NCBI GenBank assembly: GCA_943788725.1
Contig: CALSRJ010000004.1
Location: 1-64,000, forward strand
Direction: 5' to 3'
Length of the DNA: 64,000 nt
Source of the DNA: an uncultured Flavobacteriales bacterium
GTDB taxonomy: Bacteria; Bacteroidota; Bacteroidia; Flavobacteriales_G; Salibacteraceae
This document shows positions 39,563 through 50,241 of the stretch, piece after piece. The notes beneath the pieces are model-generated. The model was not told the DNA's origin and made no database searches. It saw nothing but the letters and a program-made list of their open reading frames with translations. Numbering within the stretch: the stretch's first letter is position 1; each line of letters starts with the position of its first letter. The position numbers and the translations under genes are program-made.

Positions 39563-42500
39563 TCAGGGAGTGAGGTGGAATATATCCACGCGCCGCATTT
39601 CCAATCGCTGTGCGAATGTGAGCTTCTCTCCAGGAGCTCCGATTCCTTCGATGATGATCCGTTCTGGGTCTATACCGAGGTTCACGAGGTAGTCCCTGAC
39701 AATTTCCGCGCGCATCTTAGAAACTTCAGCAGCAATTTTTGGGTCGCCAAGGTCACACGAATGTCCGACGATGAGCACCGGTTGTCCCGAATTCCGGATG
39801 ATAGGATAGACGCGGTTCAAGCGATAGCGATCATTGTTGCTCAACCTAACACTGTTGAAATTGAAGTAAATGGTCTTCAGCTTCAGGTCGTTATGCTCAA
39901 GGTCTTCTCCTTCTGGGGCAGGCTTACCTGTCATAGGTGAACTCGAGTTGATGTTCTGGGGTTCCTTCGGGAGGAATTTAGTGATGTCTAATTCAGGGTT
40001 TTCCGTCAAGCGCATCCCTGCGTACGACCCATCTTCTCTAGCCAAGGTGACAAACTTGAAACCAGCTGCCGTTGGCCCTTCTTGCACGAGTTCTTCATTT
40101 TCCTCGTTTTCAAAAATGAATTGAGCTTCGTCTAACAAGCCTTTATCTTGTTCTGCCAATCGAACGAAATATTCAGACTCCTTGGCGAGTTTATTAAAAA
40201 TGAAGTTACCGTTCGAGTCGGTGTACACGGTTTCAATCACCTTTTGGTTCTCATCAAGAAGTTCAAGTCGAACACCTTCTTTTCCTAGGCTTTGGTAGTC
40301 GAAACGACCCTTGACATCCTTAAAGCTTTCAGTGACCAATTCTTTTGCTTCATCAGAGTTGATCTGGGAGATGTTAAAGAAGTAGTCTTGGTCCAATCGT
40401 TCAAAGGCATACATGTTCTCTGGATCAATTGCGGCTGTATTGACCGTTCCATCGCTGTCTACGAAATAGAGCTGCGTTTCAAGCATTTCTGTATCCGTAA
40501 CCCCAACAACCTGAACGCGGTAGTTTTGGTTCGGCTTCAACATGGAGAATACAAAGTGACCGCTTGCATCGGTAGTAACCGTTTCAATGATGTTGTCATT
40601 GTCATCCAACAAGTGCAGCGAAATTCCGTCCGTAGGAAGGTTTTTGTACTTATACAAACCGATGGTAAAGACAAAGTTTTGCGAAAGGCGGTTGTCGTCG
40701 TAATCCTCTTCTAAGAGGCGAAGACCCGCTATTAATTCTGGGTCTAGCGCCTGATACCGGAAGCCGTACTCACTGTCCTCTAAGCTGCTCACAGCATTTC
40801 CTTCTCTATCCATGAAGGCAAGGCTTCCTCCCACCAGCGCTTCATCTGCTGGTCGGATGCTGAAGTTTTGATCTGCGCGTAGCTTCGTGAACATGAACTC
40901 ACCGTCCTCATTGGTCACGACTTCTTCAATCAGGTTATTGTTTTCATCGTACAGGCGAAGTGTAACGCCATCTTGTGGAAGGTTCTCGTAAGAAAAAACA
41001 CCTGCACTGGGCGATGCAGCGGTGTTGATCTTCGTATCGACCGTCGATAGCGACTTCAACTGCGCCATCTCTCTTGCCTGGATCTTTTGGTATTTGAACT
41101 CTCCGTTTTCGTTTACGACACTTTTGAAGAGCTTGGCGCCTTGATCGTCTGTGTAGTAAATCGTACCGTTCTTTTTGATGTATTCTAAGTCGCTGACGAT
41201 CTGAATTTTTAAGTCCAGGCTGTCTGGTGTGTTTGCAAACGTGAAGGCACCTTTTTTCTGAGTCTGAGCGTACTGATAAACCTTGCCGTCTGCGTCCACC
41301 AAGGCGAGCATGATGCCTGAAATAGGAGTACGGTCGACTTCAAATACCCCTTGCATGCCTTTTTGGAAAGCGGGCTTGTCGAGCACTGGCATGGCGGCGA
41401 CATCCTCCGGCAATCTCGGTGTGAGAAGCAATGTGCCATCATCATTGTATTCTAGCTGCTCTATGTACGCGCCATCTTTGTTGAGAAGCTGTGGGTTGAA
41501 CAACTTAAGGTCAAGCATAGGATGGCTGGGGGTAAGCGTGTACTCGCTTTTTTCACGCAATCCAGAAATTTCGAACACGTCATCACTTCCAGGAAAGAAA
41601 CTCCCGACCAACTCTCCCTTTGCATCCTTCACGTCAATTTTTATATCCGCTGCCCTTGAGTCAAATGACTCAAATACCAATCGAAGGATGTCAGCTTCCT
41701 TGTAATAGAGCGTGTTCTTTGCGGAGTAAATGTTGCTCAAGCTGTCGTTGCGGTTCGAGCTGAAATAAAACGTCTCACCGCTTGAAAATGGAAATGCGTC
41801 AAATCCAGGGGAATTGATTTTCTTTCCGGCATTGACTGGTTTTGACCAATGGGTCCAACTAGAATCGAGACGGTAGCTGTAGAAGATGTCACAATCTCCT
41901 TGACCCCCGTGTCCCGTTGACGCGAACATCAGCGTTTTTCCATCTTCAAAGAGGAAGGGGGATATCTCATAACCAGCACTGTTGATGCTATCTCCCATCC
42001 AGATTGGCTTACCCCATCCATTGGCGGTCTTGAGCGAAACATATAGATCTTCCTGACCCATCGAGTTAAAGCTTTCCATTGAGATGATCAAAATGTCCTC
42101 AGAAGGACTAATGTATCCGCCATAGAATGGGCTCTTGATGTTGAGGTTATCTACCTCAACCGTTTCGGGTCTTGGCCAATCCCCGTCTTCTTTTTTCTCG
42201 GTCATTGAGAAGCCGCTTTGCAACGAGACTTTCTTGATGTAGGTACCGATCATATACATACGCTGTCCATCCTTTGAAAGGCCGATCGTGACGTTGTTGA
42301 GATAGTTGTTCAGCTTGTTTAGGTCGTTTGAAGGCTGGCTCCAAGCATTGCCGTCGAAATCACTGTACCAAAGGTCTTGACCGACAGTTTTACCGCCTTT
42401 GTTGTCAGGGTGAAGGGTACGCGAAAAATACAAGCGCTTGTCTATCGGGTCATACACCGGACTGTTTTCTTCGTACTCGCCATTGATTACGGGAGACAAA

Positions 42501-42589
42501 GCTTCAACGGATTCAAACCGAAAGCCTACCTGCGCCTGTGAGAGAGCGAAGGTGAGGAGCAGGAAAGTGGTTAGGAGTAGGCGGTTCAT
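39563..42589 (-). CDS. OmpA-family protein with PD40 propeller and four CRD-like repeats (PorE-like layout)
   Basis: 1008 residues. Signal peptide (about 1-20), a PD40/WD40-like propeller (about 30-310; ENSPVYDPIDKRLYFSR, FEDGKTLMFASTGHGGQGDCDIF), a carboxypeptidase-regulatory-like linker, then four related units of about 115-130 residues (FSYENLPQDGVTLRLYDENN, YKYKNLPTDGISLHLLDDND and two like them). The C-terminal OmpA domain (about 885-1008) has LIVGHSCDLGDPKIAAEVS and RRVDIF for peptidoglycan binding. This resembles PorE (propeller, CRD, OmpA) without its TPR part. Third gene of the adhesin cassette; likely anchors or tethers the secretion machinery or adhesin to the wall. Role inferred. 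Confidence 0.87.
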   Translation of the reverse strand: MNRLLLTTFLLLTFALSQAQVGFRFESVEALSPVINGEYEENSPVYDPIDKRLYFSRTLHPDNKGGKTVGQDLWYSDFDGNAWSQPSNDLNKLNNYLNNVTIGLSKDGQRMYMIGTYIKKVSLQSGFSMTEKKEDGDWPRPETVEVDNLNIKSPFYGGYISPSEDILIISMESFNSMGQEDLYVSLKTANGWGKPIWMGDSINSAGYEISPFLFEDGKTLMFASTGHGGQGDCDIFYSYRLDSSWTHWSKPVNAGKKINSPGFDAFPFSSGETFYFSSNRNDSLSNIYSAKNTLYYKEADILRLVFESFDSRAADIKIDVKDAKGELVGSFFPGSDDVFEISGLREKSEYTLTPSHPMLDLKLFNPQLLNKDGAYIEQLEYNDDGTLLLTPRLPEDVAAMPVLDKPAFQKGMQGVFEVDRTPISGIMLALVDADGKVYQYAQTQKKGAFTFANTPDSLDLKIQIVSDLEYIKKNGTIYYTDDQGAKLFKSVVNENGEFKYQKIQAREMAQLKSLSTVDTKINTAASPSAGVFSYENLPQDGVTLRLYDENNNLIEEVVTNEDGEFMFTKLRADQNFSIRPADEALVGGSLAFMDREGNAVSSLEDSEYGFRYQALDPELIAGLRLLEEDYDDNRLSQNFVFTIGLYKYKNLPTDGISLHLLDDNDNIIETVTTDASGHFVFSMLKPNQNYRVQVVGVTDTEMLETQLYFVDSDGTVNTAAIDPENMYAFERLDQDYFFNISQINSDEAKELVTESFKDVKGRFDYQSLGKEGVRLELLDENQKVIETVYTDSNGNFIFNKLAKESEYFVRLAEQDKGLLDEAQFIFENEENEELVQEGPTAAGFKFVTLAREDGSYAGMRLTENPELDITKFLPKEPQNINSSSPMTGKPAPEGEDLEHNDLKLKTIYFNFNSVRLSNNDRYRLNRVYPIIRNSGQPVLIVGHSCDLGDPKIAAEVSKMRAEIVRDYLVNLGIDPERIIIEGIGAPGEKLTFAQRLEMRRVDIFHLTP

Positions 42590-42598
42590 TAAGGGGCG

Positions 42599-43594
42599 TT
42601 AAAAGATTGCTTTCTCTTTATTGAACAAATTCAATCCCAGCATGACTTCATGGCTACCAATATTGTTCGTTTGAATGGAAGAAAGTGTGAAGTCAAAGGC
42701 ATAGCCAAAGCGAAGCGTATTCGATAGGTGTAATCCAACCATGCCGACCAAGGAATTCGAGTTTCTGTAGGAAACACCTCCCCAGAAGCGGTCTTGATAA
42801 TCAAGCCGAACGTTCAAGTCTGCAGAGATGGGGGCTTGGCTTACGTACTTCACTAATATACTCGGTGTTAAGGTCATGTTTCGGTTGATGCGGTAATGAT
42901 ATCCTGCCATCAAATTGTGGTGAGCCTTGATTTCTTCGAGTGTAATCTGATTCGATAGCTTGAGGCGGTCTTGCACCAATTGGTCGCTGGAATAACCGAC
43001 AAAAAATTTTGGATGGTACATCCAAAACGCCAAATTGATGTCCATCAGTGAACTCGCTCCTCTAGAAGACACGTAGTTCATGTACGTAGGGTCGCCACTG
43101 AATTCGACCACGGCCTTGGATTGATCGAAGGTGACAGAGGTATATCCAACGCTCGGTGAAAACGCTACGCTCAATTGCTTCGCGATGGGTAGGTGGAAGG
43201 TATAGGACAAGCCTGCCATGGTCAGCCCATAAGGGCCGTATGAGTCTTGAGCAGCATAACCCCCGACTGCGTGGTAAGACTTGCGTTGGATAGATGTGTA
43301 CGCTGCTGGTGAACTGATGCGAACCGATGAATTCTGAGGGTTGATCTCAATGCGTTTGCCGAGCGGTTGGGTCACGCTTACGTAGTAGGTTGTTGGGCTA
43401 TTCGTTATGCCCACCCACTGATTGCGATAACTCAGGTTCACTTCGGTGTAATCGTGCAATCCAGCCGTCGCAGAATTCAGGATATAGAGGTTCTGCAGGT
43501 ACTGGCTGAACTGATAGACTTGTTGCCCTTTGGCGCCGACCGTGATGAAACAGGCCACGAGGATCAGGGCGCTATGTGCTAGTGCTCGCTTCAT
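42599..43594 (-). CDS. PorP/SprF-family outer-membrane protein
   Basis: 331 residues, beta-barrel type. Signal peptide (about 1-23), then the family opening [37 protein letters not shown], alternating hydrophobic strands throughout, and an aromatic-containing end. PorP/SprF proteins are needed for export or anchoring of the T9SS type B protein encoded beside them. Its ATG overlaps the adhesin's stop (ATGA), which couples the two; 9 bases separate it from the OmpA gene. Confidence 0.93.
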
Positions 43595-46500
43595 TTGATG
43601 ATCGTTACGGAACCAGTTTGTGGCGGAACCTCCTCCACATTCAGTTCGATGACATAGAAATAACTTCCACTTGGCAGGGCTTCTCCATTATCGGTTCCGT
43701 CCCATGAATCTTTGTACCCTTTAGAGGTAAATATCTCATATCCCCAACGGTTGTACACTTTGACTACGCACCCTGGGTAGCTTTCCAGCTCTTTCAAGTT
43801 CCAAACGTCATTGTAGTTGTCCCCGTCAGGTGTAAATGCCGTAGGTAATACCGGGCCAATGTTTATTCCAACCATCACAGTGTCTCTAGTCTTGCAACCA
43901 AACTCAGTTTCGGCAGTGACAATGAAGTCCATAGTCTCTCGAGGAGCTGCCATGACAGAATCACCGTCTGTAGTCAATAAAGAAGAAGCAGGAGACCAAG
44001 TGTAGGTCACAGGTTGTACTGTGCTCGTGGCCGTCAAGGCAATGTTGGACGGGTTGAAGATGTATCGATCCTTTCCAGCGTCAACTGCGGTGTAAGGCTT
44101 CACATCTAACTGAACTGAGTCATAGGTAATCGAACAGACGCCATTGGCCACCTTCCATACATAGTTGTAGGTGCCAAGACTCAAGCCGGTTACGATTGAG
44201 TTGAATGCCGCGGTGTCTGAAATCGTCGTTCCATTGCTAGCAGGCAACCATGTTCCCGTTCCAATCGTGTCTAGGATCGCTCCGAGTATTGCTTCGGTGG
44301 TATCGCAAAGAATAATGTCGAGTCCAGCGTTCGCAGCGGTTGGATTCAAGTATTCAATGATCTCCATCGTGTCGCGTTCAATCGGGCAAACGCCGTTTTC
44401 AATTCGCCACTCAAACACGGTCGTGCCCACAGTGATACCAGAAATCGTTGATGCAGGATTGGTGCTGTCGGCGATCGACGCTTCACCCACAAGCATACTC
44501 CAGAAACCAAACCCAACTCCAGGCGTGTTGCCAGCTAGCGTTCCTGTGTATTCTTCACACTTTTCTTGGTCTGGGCCAGCGTCGGCTAGACTTGGGAAAT
44601 CATAGCGGAATACTTCGTACTCGCACGTATCGGTGTTGCCATAGCTGTCGGTTACCGCAAATCGGTTAATGGTTGATCCAACCGGATAGAAATCCCCGCT
44701 CGCAATTCCAGCGACTTGCACTACATCAATTCCAGAACAATTGTCTATGTAGGCAGGATAGACGAAAGTGAAGGTGGAATCGCAAATGAGCGTGTCAGAC
44801 TGACAAAGCAATTGTGGCGTTTGCCAATCGATAACCTCGATGATGAACGAACAAGTGTCTGTATTGCCAGATTGATCGTACGCGACATACGTCAATTGCG
44901 TAATTCCCACAGGGAAGAAGCTGTTTGAATCTAATCCCGTCGTGTCGATCTGGACAATGGAATCCACGGTACAGTTATCCGTCGCGGTAGGCCAATTAAA
45001 TTCCACCACGGCCCCACACACATCGATGTCATTATCTACTACAATAGAGTCGAGACAGGTAATGACCGGACGAATGGTATCGAGTGCGGTAATATTCAAG
45101 ATCTGCGAATCGACGTTTCCGTAGATATCCACCGCATAGAAATAAATGTCAATGGTTGAGTCTACAGATGCACAGGTTACAAGGGTATCGGATAGATAGA
45201 ATGTATCAACGCCGCAAGCGTCCTGGGTGCTATCGTTTAAGCCAATAGCATCAAAGGTGAAGACGCCATTGCTGTCGAGGTAGAACGTATCAGAATGAGC
45301 GAAGATGGCCGGGGCGATCGTATCGTTGATGATAAAAATGCTCGTATCAACACTGACATTTCCATTGACGTCTGTCGCGGTAAAGGTCACCGTTAACGTA
45401 TCTCCATGATTGCCGCAGTTGAAAGACGCGGTGTCAATGATGATGGACGCTAAGCCGCAGTTATCCCAAGAGCCGATGTCAATGCTGTCGGCGGTCATCG
45501 ATGCAAAACCGAAGGAGTCCAAGGAGACATAGAACGTATCGATGATGTCGATAATTGGAGCGATGGCGTCAATCACCGTAATGTCTATGGAGACGGAATC
45601 AAGGTTGCCATGGATGTCCAAGCCGTAATACCAGAGCGTATTTACTCCGATGTCAGCGCAGCTGAACATCTCTTGTTCGACCCATAATTCCTGAATGCCG
45701 CAGGCATCCCAGGACCCGAGATCCACATTGCTTGAATCAATCAGGCGCGCACCAAAGCTGTCCAGCGCGATGGTAATGTTTTGAGTAACCACATTTGGTG
45801 GAAGGGTATCAAGAACCGTTACAAGCGTAGAGTCTGAGCTGGTATTTCCGCTTGGATCTGTACCCGTGAGTGTCACCATCACTGGCGCTGCGTGGTTGTT
45901 GCAGTCGAAGTTGAAAGTATCCAGTGTATAGGCAATTCCGCAGGCGTCAAATGATGCGGAGTCCATCTCTGCGCTGGTCAGGGTATACTGTCCATTCACA
46001 TCGAGATAAACGGTCAGTGCGTTGTAAGCATGTAATGCAGGAATCGCTTGATCGAGTACGGTTACATAAGCATGGGCTGTATCAAAGTTTGTATTTACGT
46101 CAGCGACGTTCAGTACTACTTGAACTGGGGAGCCTACATCCGAACAGTCGAATACGGTATCGTTTGCGTTAATCAATAAAATACCACAAGCGTCGGAAGA
46201 TCCATTGTCCATTGAATCAGCTGGGATAGTAACGGAGCCTAAGCTGTCAAGAATGACGGTGACGTTCTTCGCGATTACATTTGGAAGGACGGTGTCTAGT
46301 ACGGTCACAACCGCCGTTGCACTATCAGCATTACCGTTTGAATCGGTCACTGTGAGTGTAACGGTCACGGGAGTTCCGACATCTACACAAGAAAAGTTGG
46401 TAATGTTAACAGCGAGCGATGCAATGCCACAAGCGTCGGAAGATCCATTGTCAACGTCCACTCCAGTGATGAGTGCACTTCCCGAGGCGTCTAACCAAAG

Positions 46501-49500
46501 ATTGATGTCTTGGGTAATCACATCTGGAGCGACGGTATCCACTACTTCGATGGCCACCTGAACACTGTCTACATTTCCAGATGGATCAATGGCGTAGAAC
46601 CAAACCAAGTTAGTTCCTACATCAGCACAAGAGAAGGCCGAGTCACTCAGGGCGAAACTGAGCCCACAGTTATCGTAGCTCGCACTGTCCATGGAAGCAG
46701 AAGGCACAACAACAGACCCAAAGGCGTCAAGAAAGACGGTGGTGTCTTTACCCAAAGCAAGCGGAATGATTGTATCCAATACATTTACGTCAACGGTGCT
46801 AGAGCTGCTGTTCCCACTGATGTCTAAAGCATTGATGGTGATGGTATTGGAGCCTATGTTTGCACAGTAAAAGGTATCTGCGCTGACAGTATAGGAGGCG
46901 ACTCCACAATTGTCGCTAACAAATACGCCAGCGGGATACATTGCTCTCGTTGTCAAACCACGAATACTACCGTAGTTACTGCTGAGTACTAGTTCAGGGG
47001 TGCCAGACCCATCGGCTGGAGCTCGGTAGATTTGATCAGAGCCTCCAAATCTCGTCCAGTATAGCATGTCCGAGGGGGCGAAGTAATCAATGCCATAGAT
47101 TCCTGTCTGACCTGTATACAGCGTTGTAGCAACCGAGGAGCCATCAACGGATCCTGCCATGATCGATCCCGTGCCACGGTTCGCCCAATAAACAGTTCCA
47201 GACTTTCCGTCAATGACTACTTGCCTAGCATTGCTAACACCGTCTCCAGCATCGTACAAAATCTGGTACTCAGAACCATCGCCGCGCATGCTCTCAATAC
47301 GGTTATTGGTGATGTCAGAAAAGATAAGTAGGTCGGTGGATGGGTCGTAATCCATGCCCGCTGATCCAGACGTAGTTGGATTAATCAAATTAGTTGCCGT
47401 TCCAGTTCCATCGAGGTTGCCCACGAAAATTCCATCGTCACCCGCGGTGAAGAATATTCTGTTATTGGCATCGTCGATGTATACTTCATGACGTTCATAA
47501 ACAGACGCGACAGCGGCGTTGGGCAGCGAATACTTTGACCCTGATCCATCAGCGGCGATTCGGTACACTTCGGAATAATTTCCGCCAGCAAAATAAACCG
47601 AGTCAAGAGCTATCGAGTAGTCAATTCCAACCGGGCCCTGTGTTCCAGCCGCAGCTGAATTGAGTAAGATCTGAGCCGCCCCGGTAGTCATATCGGCTTC
47701 CCAAATACGGTTTGAGTTTGTGCCCGTGAAATACAACGTTCCAGAAGGCGTGGTTCCATCAAGAAGAGAATCGGGGATGTACGCCTCACCAAAGGAATCT
47801 AAATACAAGGTGAAATTGCTGGCTGAAATAACGGGTCCTGTATTATCAGAAACATCCACCTGCGTGATGTCGTAACCGACATTGCCGCGGTCGTCTGTGG
47901 CTTGAAGATAAACTACTTGAGTACCGGTATCAGCGCACGAGAAGAATACGCGATCTGCGAAGGCCATTGTGTCATTGACCTCAATCACGGCAGGGTAAGA
48001 ACCAGCACAAGAAACATCGTTCCAAGTGCCCGTTAGGTAGAGCTGAACACAATCCTCATTTCCAGAATTGTTGGGTTCGCCCACAGTCCAATTGGTATAA
48101 GAAACGGGCTCGCCGTTGTCCCAAACAAAGGTTCCTTCAGAAACAGCGTCTGAAAGCCCGATCCAAGGGGGTAAAGCGGGATTAGAGGCCAGGGAGGTGA
48201 TAAAATCGTTTTCTGCGGCACTGGTAATGCTAGCCAAATAACCGCCCATGTTCGAAGCCAAGGTTTGTGCCGCTGTCTTCGAGAGGCTGGCGTTGGTCAA
48301 GAAATACGAGTGACCGTTCAGCGCCCCTAAGTATTGGACTTGCGTTTCGTATCCGGCGATGTTGGAACGCGCTACAGACCGGGTAAAATTACAAGCATCA
48401 GTAGTCGCAGAATCGATGTCATTGGTGTCAACAAAAGCAGATCCGTTGGCGTCAAGCGGCAAGGTCAATGAAGCATATGTATTGACATTCGGAGCAGTAG
48501 CATCCGGGTTCAGTTGTAAGGTGTATTCTTCAGCTTCACCATACGTTGCGGATAAACAAGGGTTTGTCGGCACGGCATTATAGGTTGCCACTACGCGCAT
48601 GATCGTCGCACCTGTATCTGACCCACAAGGGATGATAAACGAGCCATTGAACGCTGCGGTACTCCAAGTGCCACTGTTCCAAAGTTGTTCCGCGCCTTCA
48701 AAGATTCCGTTCTGATTTACGTCTACCCAAATTCCGAATCCCTGTGCGTAAACAGGTCCCGCTTGAACCGTAAAATTAACAGTGTCACCTTCTGCTCCTG
48801 TATGGACAAGGCTAGTGAAGTCAGCAACGGTACCATTACAACCTGAGCCGTTGTTGGTGATGTTTGTCGTTCCTCCAGTGGTAGAAAAGTTTTCAATTTG
48901 ATCTCCAACGGCACAGCCGGTAGTGAATAATGGGGAACAATAGGGTGAAGTAACAACGAGTTCATATTCTTCCACTTCACCAAAGCCATAGTTTGCGCAA
49001 GGATCCGTTGGTATCGTATTGTACGCACAGCGAACACGCATTCTATAGGAAGTTTTTGGGATGGCGAACGGAATATCGAAGGACCCGTTAACCACTGCAG
49101 TTGTCCATGTAGAACTACTCCACATAAGTTCATTCGCTTCGAACACATTGTCTTGATCCCAGTCAACCCATATTGAATATCCTTGAGAATAGGTTGCTCC
49201 AGATTGCAGAGAAAAACTTACCGTTGATCCAAAGGCGGAAGTATGTGTCTGTGACGTAAAATCGCCATACGCTCCGGCGCTACATCCAGTAGCTAAGTTG
49301 GAAATGTTAGACGTTCCTCCGGAAGTGCTAAAGTTGTTGATGTAGTCTCCAAGAGCACATCCATTCGTATACGAAGGAGAGCAAGGGGATAAATAGCTGA
49401 TAATGACTTGTCCATTTCCGCTTTGAACTCCTGCGCTGTTTACCTGATTACTTCCTGAGTTGTAGGATCCACCTCCAGCTCCAGAACCCCAAGTAGAGCC

Positions 49501-50241
49501 ATTCCAGCCGTTTCCGCCGCCGCCGCCATTGTAGCCACCGCCGCCGCCGCCAGCTCCAGAACAACCGCCGCCGCCGCCGCCGCCGCCATAACCGCCAAAT
49601 GGAATTGCTCCACATCCAGAGTTTACTGAGGAGCCACCATTTCCGCCGAGAAGTGGTCTAATTCCGCCACCGCCTACATAGGTAGTAGCAGCCCCATTCG
49701 TTCCATTGCTAAACCAACCAGCACCACCACCGCTGGACCCGCCAGCTCCAGCGCTTCCTCCGCTTCCTCCATTTCCAGAGGCCCCACTTGTTGCATTTCC
49801 TGAGCCATTGATAGAGTTGGTCGGTGTGTTCGTCGCTGAACCAACACCCCCCTGAGAGCTGTTGGAGTTGCCCGCACGACCACCGCCGCCACCTGCTGCC
49901 ACGTACAAAGTATTGCCAGTCGTAGTATTCCAGATGAAAGTTCCGCCACCACCACCGCCGACGTTATTCGCTTGGGTTGCTCCTTGTCCGCCGACCATAA
50001 TGGTCACTACATCACCAGCAGTCACTGCAAAATCTCCAATTATTCGAGCGCCATTCGCGCCGGTGTTTCCACCTTGGGCGCCAGATCCATTAACATTAAT
50101 TGAGGTAACCCCAACCGGTACTATAAACGTTTGGGTAGCTCCCGTGTAATTGTACGTAGCCGTCTGGGTCACCTGAGCAATGATTGCGGAGGGGCCAAAG
50201 ATGAATACACAGTAGGTGAGGAATCGTAAAAATGTCGTCAC
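43591..50241 (-). CDS. Giant T9SS type B adhesin with glycine-rich, GEVED, C-type lectin, propeller and Ig-like repeats
   Basis: 2216 residues from GTG. Signal peptide (about 1-22). Glycine-rich head about 38-284, similar to the ALK/LTK glycine-rich domain. GEVED domains at about 287-430 and 434-584 ([28 protein letters not shown]). C-type lectin about 637-760, with EPN at 722-724 and WND at 740-742. YWTD-like propeller about 828-1103. Then eight or so Ig-like repeats of about 68 residues (LDSFG...DACG...GNVDS...VLDT), two HYR domains, two PKD-like domains, and a type B tail ([26 protein letters not shown]). The lectin and propeller each look inserted within a repeat. Surface attachment via carbohydrate binding is likely. 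Predicted partner: PorP/SprF next door. Confidence 0.9.
49565..49587 (-). repeat. (GGC)n glycine-codon microsatellite in the adhesin
   Basis: Seven full CCG units plus CC on the plus strand, i.e. a run of GGC glycine codons in the coding strand, in phase with the frame. A smaller CCGCCGCCG cluster lies at 49515-49553. Length changes here would keep the frame. Confidence 0.8.

Follow-up and report, generated by a model that had tools for sequence, protein, structure and literature searches.

Split domains have been described in RTX adhesins, among them AhLap of Aeromonas hydrophila, FrhA of Vibrio cholerae and MpIBP: in these giant modular proteins a ligand-binding module interrupts an Ig-like domain, buds out and projects off the rod axis, with its binding site opposite the junction (PMC12077191, PMC10865825). 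The window analysed here, 64,000 nucleotides of contig CALSRJ010000004.1 from an uncultured Flavobacteriales bacterium, encodes a 2216-aa protein of comparable design: by sequence and structure prediction, Ig-like domains are discontinuous and a module emerges from each break. The RTX adhesins, however, are type I-secreted and carry a C-terminal RTX region, whereas here the protein is of T9SS type B and it is a HYR-like repeat that is interrupted. Furthermore, the first section of the FrhA split domain is a single strand, whereas here it consists of several elements, and different loops of one repeat family are in use in the present protein. No RTX family is among the Pfam matches of the 2216-aa protein, and its C-terminus is of T9SS type B; it would therefore work in a split-domain-like manner, yet it is not an RTX adhesin. 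What is already known, then, is the split Ig-like domain in RTX adhesins; the present case departs from it in host domain and secretion route, in its modules, and in using several loops. Since an RTX-like design is seen here together with different modules, several insertion loops and a secretion route unrelated to type I, more than one origin is suggested, that is, the split-domain design seems to have evolved repeatedly to put recognition modules on repetitive rods.

SprB and other proteins with a type B C-terminal domain (CTD) are similar: they are giant and repetitive, they carry a type B sorting domain, and porP/sprF-like and porE-like genes come after theirs. Nesting of a lectin or propeller was not found in the papers searched on such proteins. 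Neither lectin nesting nor split domains in T9SS adhesins are described in the literature searched, which covered few subscription journals. Animal C-type lectins (mannose-binding protein, DC-SIGN and the mannose receptor) share the full CTLD fold and the EPN and WND motifs with our lectin, which is, however, bacterial and inserted in an Ig-like repeat. The six-bladed YWTD propellers of LRP4, LRP6 and nidogen are followed by an EGF-like module, whereas ours, matching them with Z about 32 over some 253 residues, is nested in an Ig-like repeat. In integrins the beta-I domain is inserted in an Ig-like hybrid domain, so that there too a binding module occupies a loop of an Ig-like domain, but the modules are unrelated and the integrin insertion uses one position, with no tandem repeat array.

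The protein and its neighbouring genes

The gene belongs to a 2.9-Mb assembly, and its reading frame is uninterrupted over all 2216 aa. A giant T9SS type B protein had been proposed from the letters of the window, and the domain searches bear this out: TIGR04131 matches the sorting domain with 65.4 bits against a cut-off of 35, and CHU_C with 83 bits. From the N-terminus the protein comprises a signal-like start, a glycine-rich part, two GEVED domains and the lectin/propeller region; the propeller repeat is followed by repeats R3-R9, two HYR domains, a weak CHU_C-associated Ig match and the sorting domain. The features are as follows (REP is the repeat HMM described in the next section).

39563..42589 (-), PorE/OmpA-like protein with PD40, carboxypeptidase-regulatory-like and OmpA domains (Pfam/NCBIfam)
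42599..43594 (-), PorP/SprF-family outer membrane protein, which probably partners and anchors the adhesin (TIGR03519, 1e-65, 222 bits)
43591..50241 (-), T9SS type B surface protein (adhesin-like), 2216 aa (ORF with Pfam/NCBIfam domains)
48961..49179 (-), GEVED domain 1, aa 355-427 (Pfam PF20009, 1.6e-29, two stretches)
48514..48744 (-), GEVED domain 2, about aa 500-576, boundaries read from the sequence (PF20009, two stretches)
48367..48510 (-), R1a, first half of the lectin repeat, aa 578-625, ending past the strand after DAC (REP positions 2-40 at aa 580-619, E 4e-8)
47962..48366 (-), nested C-type lectin, aa 626-760, with EPN and WND (Lectin_C at aa 656-752, 2e-19; CTLD fold)
47851..47961 (-), R1b, second half of the lectin repeat, aa 761-797 (REP positions 45-81 at aa 762-797, E 1e-5)
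47758..47847 (-), R2a, first half of the propeller repeat, aa 799-828, in register after R1b (REP positions 2-31 at aa 799-828, E 2e-3)
46924..47757 (-), nested six-bladed YWTD-type beta-propeller, aa 829-1106 (phmmer against LRP4, E 2.8e-36; fold Z 32)
46780..46923 (-), R2b, second half of the propeller repeat, aa 1107-1154 (REP positions 35-81 at aa 1109-1154, E 1e-11)
45088..46779 (-), seven intact repeats, R3-R9, aa 1155-1718 (alignment and HMM)
44602..45081 (-), two HYR domains, aa 1721-1880 (Pfam HYR, 1.5e-20, two stretches)
43600..43845 (-), CHU_C / T9SS type B sorting domain, aa 2133-2214 (PF13585, 1.3e-23; TIGR04131, 3.9e-18)

The PorP/SprF-family gene and the PorE/OmpA-like gene lie directly downstream of the adhesin gene; the PorE model itself scores 84 bits on the latter product, under its 600-bit cut-off. 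PorP-like proteins are bound by type B CTD proteins, and porP-porE neighbours have been proposed as a mark of non-mobile anchoring, unlike SprB (PMC9143113). The gene order adhesin, porP, porE fits this proposal, and the two neighbour proteins probably hold the adhesin on the cell surface. A promoter scan upstream of the 2216-aa gene found nothing. Two other giant genes of the same genome, L051 (G000:C1, about 1012748-1015867) and L053 (G000:C7, about 1028-2062), have tandem repeats of about 240 bp of the same family, in which no lectin or propeller was found.

Two interrupted repeats

The sequence-only reading held that the adhesin repeat has a fixed motif order (LDxxG, DxCG, FSCADxG, GNxDS, VLDT), that a lectin sits in the first repeat between the DAC strand and FSCADTG, and that a propeller sits in the next repeat ahead of VSDNCG, the two flanks of each insert completing one repeat. 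An 81-column HMM (REP) was trained on the intact repeats R3-R9 only, in which this motif order is seen, with the two proposed interrupted repeats kept out. This model, blind to the flanks, nevertheless aligned them to one repeat unit: the half-repeats are complementary, with no overlap, at the lectin site and at the propeller site. When the inserts were removed, the joined halves scored 46.3 bits (lectin repeat) and 63.3 bits (propeller repeat) over model positions 2-81, whereas 200 joined random pairs of segments from the non-repeat parts of the same protein reached a maximum of 9.3 bits. Both proposed break points are therefore right, and the nesting of lectin and propeller, each inside one repeat of the adhesin array, is confirmed at the level of sequence. 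The insert boundaries first proposed (about 637-760 and about 828-1103) come close to those based on structure (about 626-760 and about 829-1106). The chain exits for the lectin at the turn after the strand following DxC, and for the propeller in the preceding loop, which joins the short helix to DxC and lies before DNCG; the claim of loop insertions at two different scaffold positions is thus supported by the HMM halves, and also by the relatives and the predicted element order described below. Pfam HYR is matched only by aa 1721-1880, and R1-R9 are connected to HYR-type domains in other genera by way of the iterated HMM. Both the DAC and FSC motifs are present in 583 of 717 intact repeats. 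In R1 these two conserved cysteines flank the lectin, and they may form a disulphide at its base.

The first insert has a complete CTLD fold (VIA-align Z about 16), and its Lectin_C score is 70.7 bits against a cut-off of 22.6. The Ca2+/sugar motifs, GEPNN and TWND, are invariant in four sequences, and its EPN/WND family makes the lectin a probable Ca2+-dependent binder of mannose-type glycans. The propeller falls under the Pfam Ldl_recept_b cut-off in the window, whereas a nested propeller of another genus (G023, below) is over it; judged by its family, it probably binds a protein partner.

AlphaFold2, run on aa 575-1240 with an alignment of seven sequences, gave a mean pLDDT of 81.7 and a pTM of 0.49. 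The composite R1 is predicted to run strand, strand, helix, strand, then, after the lectin, strand, helix, long strand, long strand, and the element order of both composites, R1 and R2, equals that of the intact R3, with lectin and propeller placed in different loops. The pLDDT is about 87-93 in the R1 halves and weaker, about 56-87, in the first half of R2. The expectation of one Ig-like fold per interrupted repeat agrees with the element order, with moderate confidence for that half. Folded alone (226 aa), the lectin repeat gave a best mean pLDDT of 78 and a pTM of 0.75, from an alignment of six sequences with no intact repeat among them; the five models spread widely, from a mean pLDDT of 78 to 34. 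The fold-search lists for both models were filled by lectin and propeller chains and are hence uninformative on the composite Ig fold. From element order, model confidence and homology, we infer that the host repeats close around their inserts.

Relatives, selection and competing explanations

Relatives provide natural controls. The closest, G008 (JABMOM010000019.1), is 88% identical and has an identical architecture, and the layout is therefore not an assembly artefact. In G006 (a UBA1993 bin) the lectin is nested at the same point, an intact repeat follows, and the propeller is in the third repeat; G005 has no propeller, and its nested lectin is succeeded by an intact repeat. The lectin break point is common to these three genomes and is kept in relatives at 41-43% identity. 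When the window is compared with G006, good alignments are obtained for the propeller repeat's flanks and for the repeat after it, and thus a whole repeat has been gained or lost between the two occupied repeats, as one would predict if every occupied repeat forms a single unit. This supports, from alignment, the view that occupied repeats act as evolutionary units. Values of omega between the window and G008 are 0.14 in R1a, 0.06 in the lectin, 0.035 in R1b plus R2a, 0.12 in the propeller and 0.04 in R2b; at 0.035-0.14 in every segment, all parts are maintained by purifying selection. In a comparison of window positions 46522-48519 with the locus L056, dS climbs steadily from 0.29 (first half-repeat) to 1.28 (R3), a pattern that a more recent exchange of the 5' part might produce.

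We consider it highly probable that the protein is a T9SS type B adhesin whose rod consists of tandem HYR-like (Ig-like) repeats, and that two N-terminal repeats are split domains presenting ligand-binding modules off this rod. The chain would exit a repeat via a loop, fold a full module and re-enter to complete the repeat it had left. In C-type lectins, as in propellers, the two chain ends lie close to each other, so that a loop can accommodate such a module while the host fold stays closed. The host repeat would then close and hold its position along the rod, and its module would point sideways, binding face outward.

A different arrangement, in which the modules are beads on a string between truncated or degenerate repeats that fail to close into single folds, would agree with the facts that each half can be aligned alone and that the composite fold is read from prediction, not coordinates. 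However, the halves are complementary and non-overlapping at both sites, the break point is conserved at 41-43% identity and both halves are under purifying selection. Moreover, in the wider set of loci described below, the matching second half follows 21 of the 25 first-half fragments that have a later match (complementarity was not required in this count). Degenerate remnants would not be expected to retain such features, and we regard the beads arrangement as very improbable. The nested modules might also be rod or spacer elements, or self-association sites, rather than ligand-presenting arms, given that the presenting role is deduced here from family membership and that YWTD propellers are also structural parts in the nidogen and LRP ectodomains. 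Such a role seems unlikely, since the lectin has kept its invariant EPN and WND motifs and most other inserts of the scaffold belong to known binding folds (lectin, LamG, fibrinogen-like, YWTD propeller). As the relatives found are mostly metagenome-assembled genomes (the nearest named ones being Flavobacteriales bins), a chimeric or mis-assembled gene was also considered. It was rejected, with next to no probability left to it, because separate assemblies have the same layout: the lectin is nested at the same point in three other assemblies, the propeller occupies the same loop in two, and the frame is open throughout.

The split-domain reading yields a practical rule, namely that wherever an adhesin repeat is broken, a binding module is probably present. 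Domain annotation tools miss such modules because the split host repeat falls below threshold.

Candidate nested modules elsewhere in the Bacteroidia

A Lectin_C match is present in 49 of 396 Bacteroidia genomes. For the wider search the repeat HMM was iterated to 249 intact repeats; the loci examined, which were chosen for matching and therefore give examples, not frequencies or a census, contained 733 intact repeats in 60 proteins and about 22 candidate splits, one of which, with a 40-aa insert, is probably a spurious linker. Beyond the genus of the window, lectins with complementary HYR-like halves at the same loop were found in G023, G025, G156, G237, G281 (twice) and G334, and also in a Chitinophagaceae bin (L060), so that this loop holds lectins in several Bacteroidia families, the first half being weak in G023, G025, L060 and one of the two G281 cases. 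G413 gives the same impression on visual inspection, its second half having diverged. A free-standing lectin is found in many other Bacteroidia cases. Nesting as a general trait of bacterial lectins was rejected, since the lectins found in Myxococcota, Planctomycetota and other phyla lack HYR-like halves around them.

Other modules are inserted as well. In G023, which represents another genus of the family, a protein of about 3257 aa (L139, C1:1944500-1954500) is interrupted three times at a third loop, the one after CADxG. The inserts are a fibrinogen/COLFI-like domain above the Pfam cut-off, a DUF4082-like stretch below it, and a YWTD propeller (Ldl_recept_b, 8e-20). A Laminin_G_3 domain (3.9e-27) lies beside a HYR-like half in L060. 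The loops in use are thus the helix-DxC loop, the turn after the following strand, and the loop after CADxG. It is fairly probable, in our judgement, that Bacteroidia HYR-like repeats form a general plug-in scaffold, in which at least three loops of one Ig-like unit take unrelated ligand-binding modules, lectins preferring one loop across several families and the other modules being exchangeable. If this is true, split-repeat scans would uncover hidden binding modules across the phylum. That related bacteria place other binding modules in this kind of unit hints at a general rule for the building of sticky surface arms.

Several further inserts were seen in passing. L161 (G042:C3) has three near-identical inserts of about 205 aa, which break HYR-like repeats at about 49|47 of the model; no Pfam match was obtained for the insert that was scanned. 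In L150 (G010:C2), after aa 765 of the frame, a 201-aa insert with no Pfam match lies at the lectin loop and looks discoidin-like by eye. In one family (f12; L103, L110, L114, L121 and L125), lectins look nested in an SprB/PKD-type Ig domain (VTLDANP before the lectin, YLWSTGDTT after it), of which the second half matches clearly and the first is short, recognised by eye and scoring near noise; lectin nesting in a different Ig-like domain is here a lead. Finally, a contig labelled as a Klebsiella pneumoniae metagenome-assembled genome (L072, CAMBIK010000021.1) has two lectin domains in a 936-aa frame, and its label is possibly a binning or naming error.
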